Position numbers and translations under genes: made by a program. A stretch of DNA of 41,529 bases from Methylococcaceae bacterium (lineage in GTDB: Bacteria; Pseudomonadota; Gammaproteobacteria; Methylococcales; Methylomonadaceae): positions 1 to 41,529 of the forward strand of contig JAJRDU010000274.1 in the NCBI GenBank assembly GCA_028748685.1, read 5' to 3'. Below are positions 2,337 to 7,409 of this stretch, piece after piece; the first letter of the stretch is position 1, and the number at the start of each line of letters is the position of its first letter. The notes under the pieces were generated by a model. That model was not told the origin of the DNA, made no database searches, and was given only the letters and a program-made list of their open reading frames with translations.

Positions 2337-2339
2337 AAC

Positions 2340-2356
2340 TAATTTTCTGGGCAGTT
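2340..2356 (+). repeat. Left copy of 17-bp imperfect direct repeat flanking the R-M cassette
   Basis: TAATTTTCTGGGCAGTT lies between the trpG stop and the vsr start. It matches TAATTTTCTGAGTAATT at 4651-4667 in 14 of 17 positions, including the first ten in a row. The pair brackets the vsr-methyltransferase-endonuclease block closely. A target duplication or recombination scar is an inference. Confidence 0.45.
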
Positions 2357-2372
2357 TTTACCGAGGCGAAGC

Positions 2373-2810
2373 TTGAGCGACACGCTTTCTCCAGAAGAAC
2401 GAAGCGAGCGAATGTCCAGGGTTCGAAACAAGAATTCGATCCCGGAAATGAAATTGCGACGACTGGTTCATGGCTTGGGTTACCGCTATCGATTGCATGT
2501 TGGCAAACTGCCTGGAAAACCAGATTTGGTTTTTCCAGGCAGACGCTCGGTAATATTCATGCATGGCTGTTTTTGGCATAGGCATCCTGGCTGCAAATTA
2601 GCCAGATTGCCGAAGTCAAAACTTGATTTTTGGGTTGAAAAGTTGGAAGCGAACAGACAGCGCGACATAGCGCACCAAAAACAATTACGAGAACTCGGGT
2701 GGCGGGTCTTGGTTATTTGGGAATGCGAAATGGACGATATCGAACACGTGTCTTTAATGGTTAAGACATTTTTGGGCGCGGAACGGGTAAATAGTAATGA
2801 AATCAGTTGA
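2373..2810 (+). CDS. vsr: Very short patch repair endonuclease (Vsr)
   Basis: Vsr nicks 5' to the T of T:G mismatches that arise when 5-methylcytosine deaminates, so it accompanies C5 methyltransferases. The 145-aa protein has the family core GKPDLVFPGRRSVIFMHGCFWHRHPGC and ends with the WRVLVIWECE stretch. With the TTG start at 2373, E25, D51, H64 and H69 fall at the same numbers as the key residues of E. coli Vsr, and C66, H71 and C74 fit its zinc site. This supports TTG over the internal ATG at 2412, which would remove a normal N terminus. Its 3' end overlaps the methyltransferase start by 14 bases. Base composition is lower in G+C than the trp genes on either side, which fits acquisition with the cassette. 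Confidence 0.93.
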   Translation: MSDTLSPEERSERMSRVRNKNSIPEMKLRRLVHGLGYRYRLHVGKLPGKPDLVFPGRRSVIFMHGCFWHRHPGCKLARLPKSKLDFWVEKLEANRQRDIAHQKQLRELGWRVLVIWECEMDDIEHVSLMVKTFLGAERVNSNEIS

Positions 2811-4008
2811 ACTTTTTGCCGGTGCCGGTGGGCTGGCGATGGGTATATCCCTCGCTGGATTTGAATCCTTGGCCGTTGTCGAATGGGATAAATGGGCTTG
2901 TGACACAATCCGGGAAAACCAAAAACGTGGGTTTCCGGTTATCCAAGATTGGCCTTTATGGGAAGGCGATGTTCGATTATTCGATTGGTCTTCCATTCCC
3001 GAGAATATCGATTTATTGGCTGGCGGCCCGCCATGCCAACCCTTTTCGATGGGGGGTAAGCACCGAGCGTTTGGAGATAGCCGCGACATGTTTCCCACTA
3101 CGGTCGAAGTGGTTCGAAAACTGCGTCCCAAATCTTTCATAATCGAGAATGTAAAGGGATTGACCCGGTCCAGCTTTGCCAATTACTACCAGTACATTCT
3201 TCTCCAATTGGAATTTCCAGAAGTTTCTCGCAAGGATGGTGAAACATGGCTGGAGCATCTCAAACGCTTGCAATCCGAGAAATCATCTGGCGCCCTGCAC
3301 TTGTCCGGACTGACTTATAACGTGGTGCCTACCTTGGTTAACGCGGCGGATTATGGCGTTCCTCAAAAACGCGAGCGTGTGTTTATAGTGGGATTCCGCT
3401 CCGATCTTGACGTCCGTTGGTCTTTCCCTCGCCCCACGCATGGTCTCGATTCCCTTTTGTACTCGCAGTGGATTACCGGAGAATACTGGGAGCGTCATAA
3501 AATCCGGAACAATAACAGACCACCACTCTGCTCTCGGCTGGAACCAAGCGTTCGCAAGCTCTCTCCGCTTCTGCCACCCGAGGAAAAACCTTGGCGAACC
3601 GTCCGCGATGCCTTGATCGATATTCCCGACCCACGTCTTGCCGATGCGCGGAATTTTTTAAACCACAATTTCCAGAGTGGGGCAAGAGCGTATCCGGGGC
3701 ACACCGGCAGCCCTCTCGATTTGCCAGCAAAGACTTTGAAGGCTGGAGATCATGGCGTACCCGGCGGGGAAAATATGATGGTGTTCGAGGATGGAGATGT
3801 CCGCTATTTCAGCGCGCGTGAATCGGCGAGGCTACAAACGTTTCCGGATGGATATGTTTTTCATGGTTCTTGGAGCGAAACCATGCGTCAATTGGGCAAT
3901 GCGGTGCCCGTGACCTTGGGACGACGAGTGGCTGCTTCCGTTGCCGAGCGTTTGGCGGAAGCTCAAATGCGTACGCTTGTTCGTTCAAGGCAAAGGCATA
4001 GCGCATGA
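2797..4008 (+). CDS. Type II DNA (cytosine-5-)-methyltransferase
   Basis: This enzyme transfers a methyl group from S-adenosylmethionine to C5 of cytosine in a specific DNA site and protects host DNA from the endonuclease encoded next to it. The 403-aa protein has the ordered C5-MTase motifs: ELFAGAGGLAMG (motif I), GGPPCQPFS with catalytic Cys80 (IV), IIENVKG (VI), QKRERVFIVGFR (VIII) and QLGNAVP (X). The stretch between VIII and X should be the target-recognition domain. The start overlaps vsr and the stop overlaps the endonuclease start by four bases (ATGA), so the three genes form one transcription unit. Specificity cannot be read directly. The partner resembles Eco29kI, which cuts CCGCGG, so a CCGCGG-like site is a reasonable guess. 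Confidence 0.95.
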   Translation: MKSVELFAGAGGLAMGISLAGFESLAVVEWDKWACDTIRENQKRGFPVIQDWPLWEGDVRLFDWSSIPENIDLLAGGPPCQPFSMGGKHRAFGDSRDMFPTTVEVVRKLRPKSFIIENVKGLTRSSFANYYQYILLQLEFPEVSRKDGETWLEHLKRLQSEKSSGALHLSGLTYNVVPTLVNAADYGVPQKRERVFIVGFRSDLDVRWSFPRPTHGLDSLLYSQWITGEYWERHKIRNNNRPPLCSRLEPSVRKLSPLLPPEEKPWRTVRDALIDIPDPRLADARNFLNHNFQSGARAYPGHTGSPLDLPAKTLKAGDHGVPGGENMMVFEDGDVRYFSARESARLQTFPDGYVFHGSWSETMRQLGNAVPVTLGRRVAASVAERLAEAQMRTLVRSRQRHSA

Positions 4009-4649
4009 CGATCAGAAATATCATTCCATTCAATCCTCTCGACAAACGTCATTTGGGGGAAAGTGTCGGCCAGGCAATGCTTCGGCAAGCCGTGATATGC
4101 ATGACCGACCTGAACACTTTTGAAGGCGCCGGAATCTATGCAATTTACTATTCCGGGAATTTTCCGGCCTACGAAGCCGTTACCATGCGTAATACCGATG
4201 GGAAATTTAATGCGCCGATTTATGTCGGGAAGGCTGTTCCCAAGGGCGCGCGCAAGGGTGGCGATCTCAACGCAAATCCTGGCAGGGTTTTATATAACCG
4301 ACTTACGCAACATATTAAAAGTATCGAGGATGCTTCGAACCTCAATCTTGCCAACTTTCATTGCCGTTATTTAATCGTTGACGATATCTGGATTCCGCTC
4401 GGTGAATCCCTATTAATTGCCAAGTTTGATCCGTTGTGGAACAAACTTATCGATGGGTTCGGCAATCATGATCCTGGCAGCGGCCGGCATGCCGGGCTTC
4501 GCCCTCGCTGGGATGTTTTGCACCCCGGTCGCCATTGGGCTGAAAAATGTCAGCCAAGAGCGGAAACTGCCGAACAAATCATTGGCGAAGCAAGGGATTA
4601 TTTACGAAATAATCCTCCGCCAGAGGATACATCCATGATTAACGTTTGA
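4005..4649 (+). CDS. Eco29kI-like type II restriction endonuclease, GIY-YIG family
   Basis: This 214-aa protein matches the rare GIY-YIG class of type II restriction enzymes typified by Eco29kI. Shared stretches are GAGIYAIYYSG, PIYVGKAVPKG, NRLTQH, the LWN...DGFGNHDPGSGR block and WDVLHPGRHWAEKC. The expected active-site residues are all present: Tyr45 (GIY), Tyr73 (YVG), Arg99, His103, Glu134 and Asn146. It is therefore probably intact and active. It overlaps the methyltransferase stop by four bases and is the last gene of the vsr-M-R block. In the original Eco29kI system, as I recall, the endonuclease gene comes first, so the order here is reversed. Cleavage at a CCGCGG-type sequence is inferred from homology only. 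Confidence 0.92.
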   Translation: MTIRNIIPFNPLDKRHLGESVGQAMLRQAVICMTDLNTFEGAGIYAIYYSGNFPAYEAVTMRNTDGKFNAPIYVGKAVPKGARKGGDLNANPGRVLYNRLTQHIKSIEDASNLNLANFHCRYLIVDDIWIPLGESLLIAKFDPLWNKLIDGFGNHDPGSGRHAGLRPRWDVLHPGRHWAEKCQPRAETAEQIIGEARDYLRNNPPPEDTSMINV

Positions 4650-4650
4650 T

Positions 4651-4667
4651 TAATTTTCTGAGTAATT
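4651..4667 (+). repeat. Right copy of 17-bp imperfect direct repeat flanking the R-M cassette
   Basis: TAATTTTCTGAGTAATT begins one base after the endonuclease stop codon and pairs with the copy at 2340-2356 (14/17 identical). Just beyond it lies TTAACCGGTTGAA (4677-4689), which also occurs upstream of trpE at 227-239. Confidence 0.45.
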
Positions 4668-4752: not shown

Positions 4753-4971
4753 ATGTACGAACGTTATGTTAAACAAAAAATTGAAACCGGGCTCAATGCC
4801 ATCGAAGAAGGTCGTGTCGTCAATCATGAAGAGGCCAAAGAAAATTTGTTAGGCGAAGATGAAATGGCTTATTTGCTGAAAAATCCGGTTAATAGCGAGC
4901 GCTTGCTAACAGCCATTAACAATATCGAGCAGCCGCAATATATCGTTCGCGTTGATCTATCCGAGCTATGA
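4753..4971 (+). CDS. Short antitoxin-like protein, possibly a remnant
   Basis: The 72-aa product reads like antitoxin C-terminal segments. IETGLNAIEEGRVVNHEEAKENL resembles the region in which small antitoxins carry a GRVVSHEE-type phrase, and EMAYLLKNPVNSERLLTAINNIEQ resembles the YLL.(S/N)P.N...LL..I tail of Phd/YefM antitoxins. The frame stays open upstream to 4681 (QIIEQVSGRTDGNSA), but no standard start is seen before the ATG at 4753, so the N-terminal DNA-binding part may be lost. No toxin gene (RelE/YoeB or Doc type) follows; the next gene is a flavoprotein. It could be a decayed toxin-antitoxin locus or a fusion of two antitoxin ends. Whether it is expressed cannot be judged. Confidence 0.5.
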   Translation: MYERYVKQKIETGLNAIEEGRVVNHEEAKENLLGEDEMAYLLKNPVNSERLLTAINNIEQPQYIVRVDLSEL

Positions 4972-4980
4972 AAATCGCTT

Positions 4981-6225
4981 TTGAACAAAGTGTTCTCTAA
5001 TAATCCTTCCGTCGCCATCATCGGCGCCGGCCCCGCAGGATTAATGGCCGCCGAGGTATTAAGCCAGGCCGGCCTGAAAGTGGATGTTTACGATGCCATG
5101 CCGTCGGTGGGCCGCAAGTTTCTAATGGCGGGCAAGGGCGGTTTGAATATTACCCATGCCGAATCATTCGGACAGTTTTTGTCGCGATATGGCGATCGCC
5201 GCGCCGAATTGACGGATGCGCTGACCGGATTCTCGCCGGATAAGTTGCGGGAATGGGTGTTGAGTTTGGGGATAAACACCTTCGTCGGCACGTCGGGCCG
5301 GGTGTTCCCGGCCGAAATGAAGGCCGCTCCGATGTTGCGAGCCTGGTTACACCGTTTACGGGCCGCCGGCGTCAAATTCCACATGCGCCATCGCTGGCTG
5401 GGATGGACGGCCGACGATCAATTGCGTTTTTACAGCTATGGCCTCGAACGCATCGTCGCGGCCGATGCGGTGGTTCTGGCGTTGGGTGGCGGTAGTTGGC
5501 CGCAGCTGGGTTCTACGGGGGCCTGGACCGCGCTGTTGGCTCAGCGAGACATAGACTTGGCGCCGCTGCGACCGGCCAATTGCGGTTTCGACGTCGCTTG
5601 GAGCGGCTATTTTCGTACTCGCTTTGCCGGCCAGCCGCTCAAGCCGGTTCGCATGGTATTCAATAACCGGCATGGCGAGGCATTCAGCCAACAAGGAGAA
5701 TTGACGATTGCCGAATACGGACTTGAAGGCGGGCTGATTTACAGTTTGTCGGCACCCTTGCGCGATGAAATATCGGCAAACGGTTCGGCGGTGATAGCCT
5801 TGGACTTGATACCGGACCGCACGCTGGAAAACGCCACCGAGCGCCTGTCGGCGCCACGTAGCAAGCAGAGTATCAGCAATCATCTGCGCAAGCGCTTGGG
5901 TCTGGATGGCGCTAAGGCCGCTTTGCTGCGCGAGGTCTTATCCACCGAGACAATGAACAATCCGTCGCAATTAGCCTCAGCATTAAAGGCCTTGCCCATC
6001 AAACTGTTGGCAACGCGTCCGCTGGAAGAGGCGATCAGCACTGCCGGCGGTGTCAGATTTGAGGCACTGGACAGTCACTTGATGTTGCGCAAATTGCCCG
6101 GCGTGTTTATTGCTGGTGAAATGTTGGATTGGGAAGCGCCGACCGGCGGTTATCTATTGACCGCCTGTCTGGCGACTGGCCGTGCCGCCGGTTTTGGGGT
6201 TCTGGCATGGCTAAGTCAAAGATGA
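4981..6225 (+). CDS. HI0933/YhiN-type FAD-dependent oxidoreductase (TIGR03862-like)
   Basis: This 414-aa flavoprotein begins with a Rossmann FAD-binding motif (VAIIGAGPAGLMAAEVL, residues ~11-27) followed by GRKFLMAGKGGLNITH, the signature of the HI0933/YhiN family. Later it has the GGGSWPQLGSTGAW segment and a C-terminal FAD-contact region (GVRFEALDSHLML...GVFIAGEMLDWEAPTGGYLLTACLATGRAAG). Substrate and physiological role of the family are not established; some annotations call it an aminoacetone oxidase, which I regard as weak. The start is a TTG at 4981; no in-frame ATG lies close upstream, and the nearby ATG at 4968 runs into a stop after ten codons. The gene sits between the antitoxin remnant and trpD, in the same direction, with no obvious link to tryptophan synthesis. 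Confidence 0.9.
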   Translation: MNKVFSNNPSVAIIGAGPAGLMAAEVLSQAGLKVDVYDAMPSVGRKFLMAGKGGLNITHAESFGQFLSRYGDRRAELTDALTGFSPDKLREWVLSLGINTFVGTSGRVFPAEMKAAPMLRAWLHRLRAAGVKFHMRHRWLGWTADDQLRFYSYGLERIVAADAVVLALGGGSWPQLGSTGAWTALLAQRDIDLAPLRPANCGFDVAWSGYFRTRFAGQPLKPVRMVFNNRHGEAFSQQGELTIAEYGLEGGLIYSLSAPLRDEISANGSAVIALDLIPDRTLENATERLSAPRSKQSISNHLRKRLGLDGAKAALLREVLSTETMNNPSQLASALKALPIKLLATRPLEEAISTAGGVRFEALDSHLMLRKLPGVFIAGEMLDWEAPTGGYLLTACLATGRAAGFGVLAWLSQR

Positions 6226-6383: not shown

Positions 6384-7409
6384 ATGCAAATCCAAGCCAC
6401 GCTGCAAAAACTGCTCGATAAACAAGATCTCGCCGCCGACGAAATGCGCGATGTGATGCGCGAAATGATGGTCGGAGAGTTGACCGATGCCCAGATCGCC
6501 GGTTTTTTGATTGCCCTGCGCTGCAAGGGCGAAACCGTCGAGGAAATTGCCGCAGCGGTTGGCGTGTTGCGAGACCTGGTGCGGCATGTGCCGGTGCAAG
6601 GTGAGCATGTGATCGATACCTGCGGTACCGGCGGTGATGGCGCCAATACCTTTAATATTTCCACCACTGCCGCCTTTGTGGTGGCCGCAGCTGGCGGCAA
6701 GGTCGCCAAGCATGGCAACCGCTCGGTATCCAGTAGTTGCGGGAGCGCGGACGTACTGGAGACGGCCGGTATCAATCTGGATATGTCCGCCGAACAGGTG
6801 GCGCGATGTGTAGCTGAAATTGGCGTCGGTTTCTTGTTCGCCGCCAAACACCATAGCGCGGTGCGCCACACGGTGGGTCCGCGTAAGGAAATGGGCGTCA
6901 GGACGCTATTCAATCTGATTGGCCCGCTATCCAATCCGGCCAATGCCCCTCACCAGTTGATCGGCGTGTTCGACAAACAGTGGTTGCTGCCGGTGGCGGA
7001 AGTGCTGAAAAAGCTCGGCAGCCGCCATGTACTGGTGGTGCATGCCGAGGATGGCCTGGACGAAATCAGCATCGCCGCGCCGACTGATGTCGCCGAGTTA
7101 AAAAACGGTGAAATCAGTACCTTTAGGCTGACACCCGAACAATTTGGCCTTGAACGCGGCAGCCTTGCAAGTTTGGCTGTGGATAGCGCGCGATCCAGCC
7201 TGGAAATTATTAATGGGGTTTTGAATAACCAGCCGGGGCCGGCGCGCGATATTGTGGCGCTGAACGCCGGTGCAGCGATATATGCGGCGGACTTATGCGA
7301 CACCTTACGGGACGGCGTAAAGGAAGCCTTGCGGGTAATCGAAAACGGATCCGCAAAAATGAAGTTCGAAGCGCTAATAGCCTATTCAAGAGACGACTTT
7401 TCCGCTTGA
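6384..7409 (+). CDS. trpD: Anthranilate phosphoribosyltransferase (TrpD)
   Basis: TrpD transfers the phosphoribosyl group of PRPP to anthranilate, the second step of tryptophan synthesis. The 341-aa length is normal. The small helical N-terminal domain is followed by the PRPP-binding glycine-rich motif [17 protein letters not shown] (residues ~75-90), then [18 protein letters not shown] and the anthranilate-contact region [32 protein letters not shown]. The ATG at 6384 gives the expected N terminus [16 protein letters not shown]. In many gammaproteobacteria trpG-trpD-trpC are adjacent. Here trpD is 4 kb from trpG and trpC does not follow, so trpD is probably transcribed from its own signal or by read-through from the flavoprotein gene. 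Confidence 0.96.

Follow-up and report, generated by a model that had tools for sequence, protein, structure and literature searches.

A Vsr-containing Eco29kI-type restriction-modification cassette at the 3′ end of trpEG in a Methylococcaceae genome

Eco29kI-type systems and the cassette behind trpG

The Eco29kI system of plasmid pECO29 (PMC3039593, PMC1952068) encodes an endonuclease of 214 aa and a methyltransferase of 382 aa (PMC3039593), and the active site of R.Eco29kI comprises Y49, Y76, R104, H108, E142 and N154 (PMC1952068). Its relative R.DraR1 cuts CCGCGG, and 310 putative m5C systems for this site, some with V elements, were reported in 2024 (PMC10855626). By description, the putative m5C CCGCGG systems listed in REBASE resemble the locus analysed here in combining an Eco29kI-like endonuclease, an m5C methyltransferase and a Vsr-like element (PMC10855626). 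In Eco29kI itself the endonuclease belongs to the same Pfam family as ours and has the same six active-site residues, the m5C methyltransferase is about 50% identical to ours, and stop and start codons overlap in both systems. However, the order there is R then M, with no Vsr in the annotated neighbourhood, whereas ours is V, M, R.

Our locus lies in a stretch of 41,529 nucleotides from a Methylococcaceae bacterium (JAJRDU010000274.1 of assembly GCA_028748685.1), hereafter the window. The window is one whole contig, which begins just before trpE, leaving the trp promoter region outside; the assembly of this source genome (G000) is 77% complete, in 337 contigs. No match to PF02461 (methane/ammonia monooxygenase) turned up in it, but none turned up in any control either, which makes this result uninformative. 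The relevant features are:

136-1749, + strand: trpE, anthranilate synthase I (TIGR00564, 581.6 bits, over cut-off), the native left neighbour
1743-2336, + strand: trpG, anthranilate synthase II (TIGR00566, over cut-off); the inserted DNA starts directly past its stop codon
2337-2372, + strand: trpG-vsr junction, 36 bp, containing the vsr ribosome-binding region
2340-2356, + strand: left copy of an imperfect 17-bp direct repeat (14/17 matches; weak)
2373-2810, + strand: vsr (V), 145 aa, T:G mismatch nicking endonuclease (TIGR00632)
2797-4008, + strand: M, 403 aa, C5-cytosine DNA methyltransferase (PF00145)
4005-4649, + strand: R, 214 aa, Eco29kI-family GIY-YIG restriction endonuclease (PF09517)
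4651-4667, + strand: right copy of the 17-bp repeat, absent in the second carrier genome, G027
4753-4971, + strand: chimeric ORF of 72 aa; its C-terminal half matches the ORF that precedes yoeB in relatives
4968-5000, + strand: yoeB stub, MKIAFEQSVL and then a stop; the remainder is absent and the flavoprotein gene comes next
4981-6225, + strand: flavoprotein gene (TIGR03862/HI0933-like, 551 bits), the native right neighbour of trpG in the genus; its exact start is uncertain, similarity to relatives starting near 5005
6384-7409, + strand: trpD (TIGR01245, 415 bits)

The original prediction described a compact, coupled V-M-R set, lower in G+C than its surroundings and with Vsr in the same unit, and this description holds throughout. 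The three genes lie where predicted and form a single overlapping same-strand unit, beginning 36 bp past the trpG stop, in which V overlaps M by 14 bp and M overlaps R by 4 bp (ATGA). The start codon of vsr is TTG, with GAGG upstream. The overlaps suggest one transcript with coupled translation. The G+C content of V, M and R is 0.46, 0.52 and 0.48, against 0.54-0.58 in trpE, trpG, the flavoprotein gene and trpD, and at third codon positions it is 0.47, 0.51 and 0.48, against 0.64-0.73 in the same four genes: the composition of the cassette is foreign to the flanking genes. No integrase or transposase gene was found between trpG and trpD in the window.

The endonuclease matches PF09517 in a profile search with 220.9 bits (cut-off 30.8, 1.1e-65) and the R.Eco29kI structure PDB 3mx4 with 5e-40, at 39-47% identity to R.Eco29kI. 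A GIY-YIG endonuclease with its full catalytic set had been predicted, and all six residues are indeed present: Y45, Y73, R99, H103, E134 and N146 correspond, in that order, to the R.Eco29kI residues listed above, and they are invariant in A1. The methyltransferase matches PF00145 (4e-61) and the PADLOC model MTase_II (433 bits), with motifs I, IV (PPCQ), VI (ENV), VIII (QxRxR), IX and X (GNxV) at residues 5, 77, 117, 190, 341 and 367.

Vsr matches TIGR00632 with 146.1 bits (cut-off 97.85, 5.5e-43) and the E. coli Vsr structure PDB 1cw0 with 4.5e-29. The two proteins are of the same family and 35% identical, and E25, D51, H64, F67, W68, H69, W87 and C66/H71/C74/C118 are common to both, so that the same catalytic, intercalating and zinc-binding residues occur in each; residue 63 is M here and T in E. 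coli Vsr. Following the roles in E. coli Vsr, we take D51, H64 and H69 to be catalytic and F67, W68 and W86 to be intercalating, in addition to the zinc ligands. E. coli Vsr serves Dcm (CCWGG), whereas the presumed partner of the window Vsr is the adjoining M.

Proposed function and recognition site

The reading that we favour, with a probability of roughly 0.87, is that the cassette is a Type IIP restriction-modification system of the Eco29kI kind that was acquired horizontally and inserted, in the order V-M-R, at the 3′ end of trpEG, with the roles, the predicted CCGCGG target, the partial read-through and the ancestral entry proposed here and below. Specifically, M would methylate host DNA at the predicted CCGCGG sites, R would cut unmethylated incoming DNA at the same predicted site, and Vsr would nick the T:G mismatches that arise from deaminated m5C, thereby limiting the mutagenic cost of M.

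CCGCGG is the likely target of M and R because M shares 50% identity, in its target-recognition region, with the methylase of a 5.27-kb Eco29kI-type plasmid, and the R of 214 aa and M of 382 aa that this plasmid encodes match the sizes of the Eco29kI proteins. M and R are adjacent and overlapping, and we infer that they have a common target. Alternatively, both enzymes could be active at some other site, the branch of M-R and V-M-R systems having a specificity of its own. The M and R proteins of this branch do separate from those of the R-M group, to which the Eco29kI-type plasmid belongs, and R is only moderately identical to R.Eco29kI. However, relative to the Eco29kI-type methylase the target-recognition region of M is conserved as much as the catalytic part, which would be unusual if the specificity differed, and R.DraR1, an equally distant relative of Eco29kI, also cuts CCGCGG (PMC10855626). 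We consider a different site unlikely and retain CCGCGG as the predicted target.

Avoidance of CCGCGG was also considered as a sign of activity and dropped. In about 300-400 kb sampled from each of four genomes, the observed/expected ratio was 0.45 and 0.59 in the two carriers (G000, G027) and 0.50 and 0.68 in two non-carriers (G014, G016). Avoidance is thus strong in all four, and since the site is equally under-represented in non-carriers, genome composition gives no carrier-specific sign of activity. Among six-base palindromes CCGCGG ranks second or third in avoidance, whether or not the genome carries the cassette, in the company of CGATCG, GATATC and CTGCAG.

The insertion site and its carriers

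We compared 34 genomes of the genus for what lies behind trpG. A search for the empty site in sister species had been proposed as a check, and five of these genomes have one: the flavoprotein gene lies within about 40 bp of trpG, with no insert (L051, L057, L059, L062, L063). In L057 and L059 it is followed by trpD and then by gene families common to the right side of the window, and in L059 fliW, which lies to the right of trpD in the window, is in the same place. Since these two loci continue with trpD and the families of the window's right side, the native gene order in the genus is trpE-trpG-flavoprotein-trpD (L051, L057, L059). In other relatives, DNA similarity to the window ends within a few bases of the trpG stop. 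The five species with an empty site all belong to those whose trpG differs more from that of the window (DNA identity below 0.79); trpG divergence, used in place of a species tree, suggests that the empty state is ancestral. The position of the flavoprotein gene directly behind trpG in these species also makes it a possible native member of the trp operon.

These comparisons change how the locus was first described. The original prediction took trpG and trpD to be usual neighbours, but in this genus the flavoprotein gene stands natively between them. The block does lie between trpG and trpD, as had been said, but it shares that interval with a toxin-antitoxin remnant (4753-5000) and the flavoprotein gene. 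It had further been argued that a split operon leaves trpD in need of other means of expression. In five single-chromosome, cassette-free genomes (G003, G008, G013, G015, G016) trpD is at least 29 kb from trpG, so the insertion implies nothing special for trpD expression.

For the cassette itself, read-through from trpEG probably accounts for at least part of the transcription of V-M-R, because the distance from trpG to vsr is just 36 bp and that junction gave no promoter match. No terminator match was found on the + strand in these 36 bp, nor between R and the flavoprotein gene. The promoter scan gave one match against 6.1 expected in shuffles, and so says little about where transcription starts.

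The block had been expected to be missing from at least some relatives, and in fact G027 (L032) alone, of the 34 same-genus loci compared, shares it with the source genome at this junction. Its left junction can be aligned with that of the window over the full length, the differences being two single-base indels and a few substitutions, and from trpG through R the DNA is 88.6% identical without a break. The V, M and R proteins are 92%, 96% and 88% identical to ours. Divergence between the two genomes at four-fold sites is 0.17, 0.30 and 0.42 for V, M and R and 0.33 and 0.46 for trpE and trpG; the values for the cassette are in the range of the flanking genes, as expected of shared descent from one insertion. 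Because the same junction occurs in G027, a two-contig genome, an assembly chimera can be ruled out. The imperfect 17-bp repeat around the cassette was rejected as a mobile-element footprint: equally good repeats occur inside genes, and G027 lacks the right copy. When the two flanks were shuffled 2000 times, a repeat of this quality arose in 3 cases, though the repeat had been spotted before it was tested.

The cassette most likely entered the common ancestor of G000 and G027, given their shared left junction, and the right side would afterwards have been rearranged differently in each: in G027 the cassette is followed by genes for a transporter and a deaminase, with trpD some 120 kb away. Separate entry into the two genomes at one insertion-prone spot would also account for the completely different right flanks, the more so as the position behind trpG has taken many different inserts in the genus and as G000 and G027 are not, by trpG, clearly each other's closest relatives. 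Such a history would sit poorly with the near-identical left junction, the unbroken identity up to the end of R, a divergence similar to that of the flanking genes, and a tree of M and R in which the two cassettes are sisters with support 1.0, and we think it quite improbable.

Descent from one insertion thus remains our preferred reading for these two genomes, but the genus has probably received the cassette at least twice, because a third genome, G034, has a V-M-R set (73-77% identical to ours) at an unrelated location (L093) that the tree places apart from the window's. The nearest other relative lies outside the genus (L104; R 81%, M 82% identical), and this similarity, together with the location and branching of the G034 copy, points to mobility and separate entry. 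That the system is instead decaying, a passenger with R or M inactive, is very unlikely: the adjoining toxin-antitoxin pair is clearly broken and R has diverged more than M between the carriers, yet in both carriers V, M and R are uninterrupted reading frames, with catalytic residues and overlaps retained.

Reuse of the position behind trpG and distribution of related systems

The stretch at 4753-5000 is a toxin-antitoxin remnant. Positions 4855-4992 match the partner/yoeB junction of L042-L044 at 87-90% identity, and the yoeB reading frame stops after its first few codons; the slot in the window therefore once held such a pair, now broken, beside the cassette. The N-terminal half of the 72-aa ORF is of other origin, and the ORF matches no Pfam family over cut-off. 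Intact YoeB genes (PF06769) occur at the same position in L042-L044.

Other genomes differ in what lies between trpG and the flavoprotein gene: DUF4160/DUF2442 genes, a gene for the YoeB toxin together with the partner upstream of it, a gene for an aspartyl-protease-like, RES-domain or deaminase protein, or a candidate defence pair of the PADLOC type PDC-M02 (G003, G018). The last consists of a DUF4365 gene and a partner, matching PDC-M02A/B, about 20-1,770 bases past the trpG stop (L048, L056). The position is thus reused by different species and is worth searching for new defence genes. One could go further and suppose that the trpEG 3′ end serves the genus as a slot that takes in defence and toxin-antitoxin genes without the help of an integrase or a tRNA site, with inserts often on the operon strand just behind trpG and driven by trp read-through, tying restriction and the balance of methylase and endonuclease to tryptophan status; we regard this as doubtful.

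The endonuclease had been described as being of the uncommon GIY-YIG type. The cassette as a whole is ordinary and of a widespread kind, and the combination of Vsr with an Eco29kI-type M and R is common and already reported (PMC10855626). A search of public genomes and viral contigs with the R alignment gave 106 loci, 55 of them V-M-R, a share that applies to loci picked by similarity to the window's R and not to the whole family; in 12 further loci a Vsr gene lies nearby at a different position. The 106 come from Proteobacteria, Nitrospirota, Desulfobacterota-like and Hydrogenedentota records, among others. None of them has a trp gene match, so the trp location is seen only in the two same-genus genomes. 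What the cassette does offer is a clean example, with two carriers and five empty sites, of how an Eco29kI-type system that includes Vsr has entered a biosynthetic locus.

Within the same taxonomic family, PF09517 occurs in 16 of 237 genomes. Thirteen of the 16 lie outside the genus and have the order R-M, with no vsr match nearby within the fetched stretches; the family's three V-M-R systems are all in this genus. Further afield, a plasmid of Paraburkholderia aromaticivorans (NZ_CP051517, L097) has V-M-R with the same 14-bp V/M and 4-bp M/R overlaps and with proteins 57-71% identical to ours, although there the cassette lies behind an integrase gene and not in a trp locus.

Two variants of the arrangement were also seen. 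In one part of the tree, which includes Pseudomonas, Pusillimonas and others, M-R systems have their Vsr gene on the opposite strand behind R (L138, L139, L153, L157, L165, L167, L168, L183, L190, L195), so that Vsr has moved and been retained. On the Rhizobium plasmid pR132502 (L102:2088-4437), a vsr and M that are 56-57% identical to ours are followed, in the position of R, by a different GIY-YIG nuclease of 252 aa with no match to the window's R, a possible replacement of R behind the same V-M pair.
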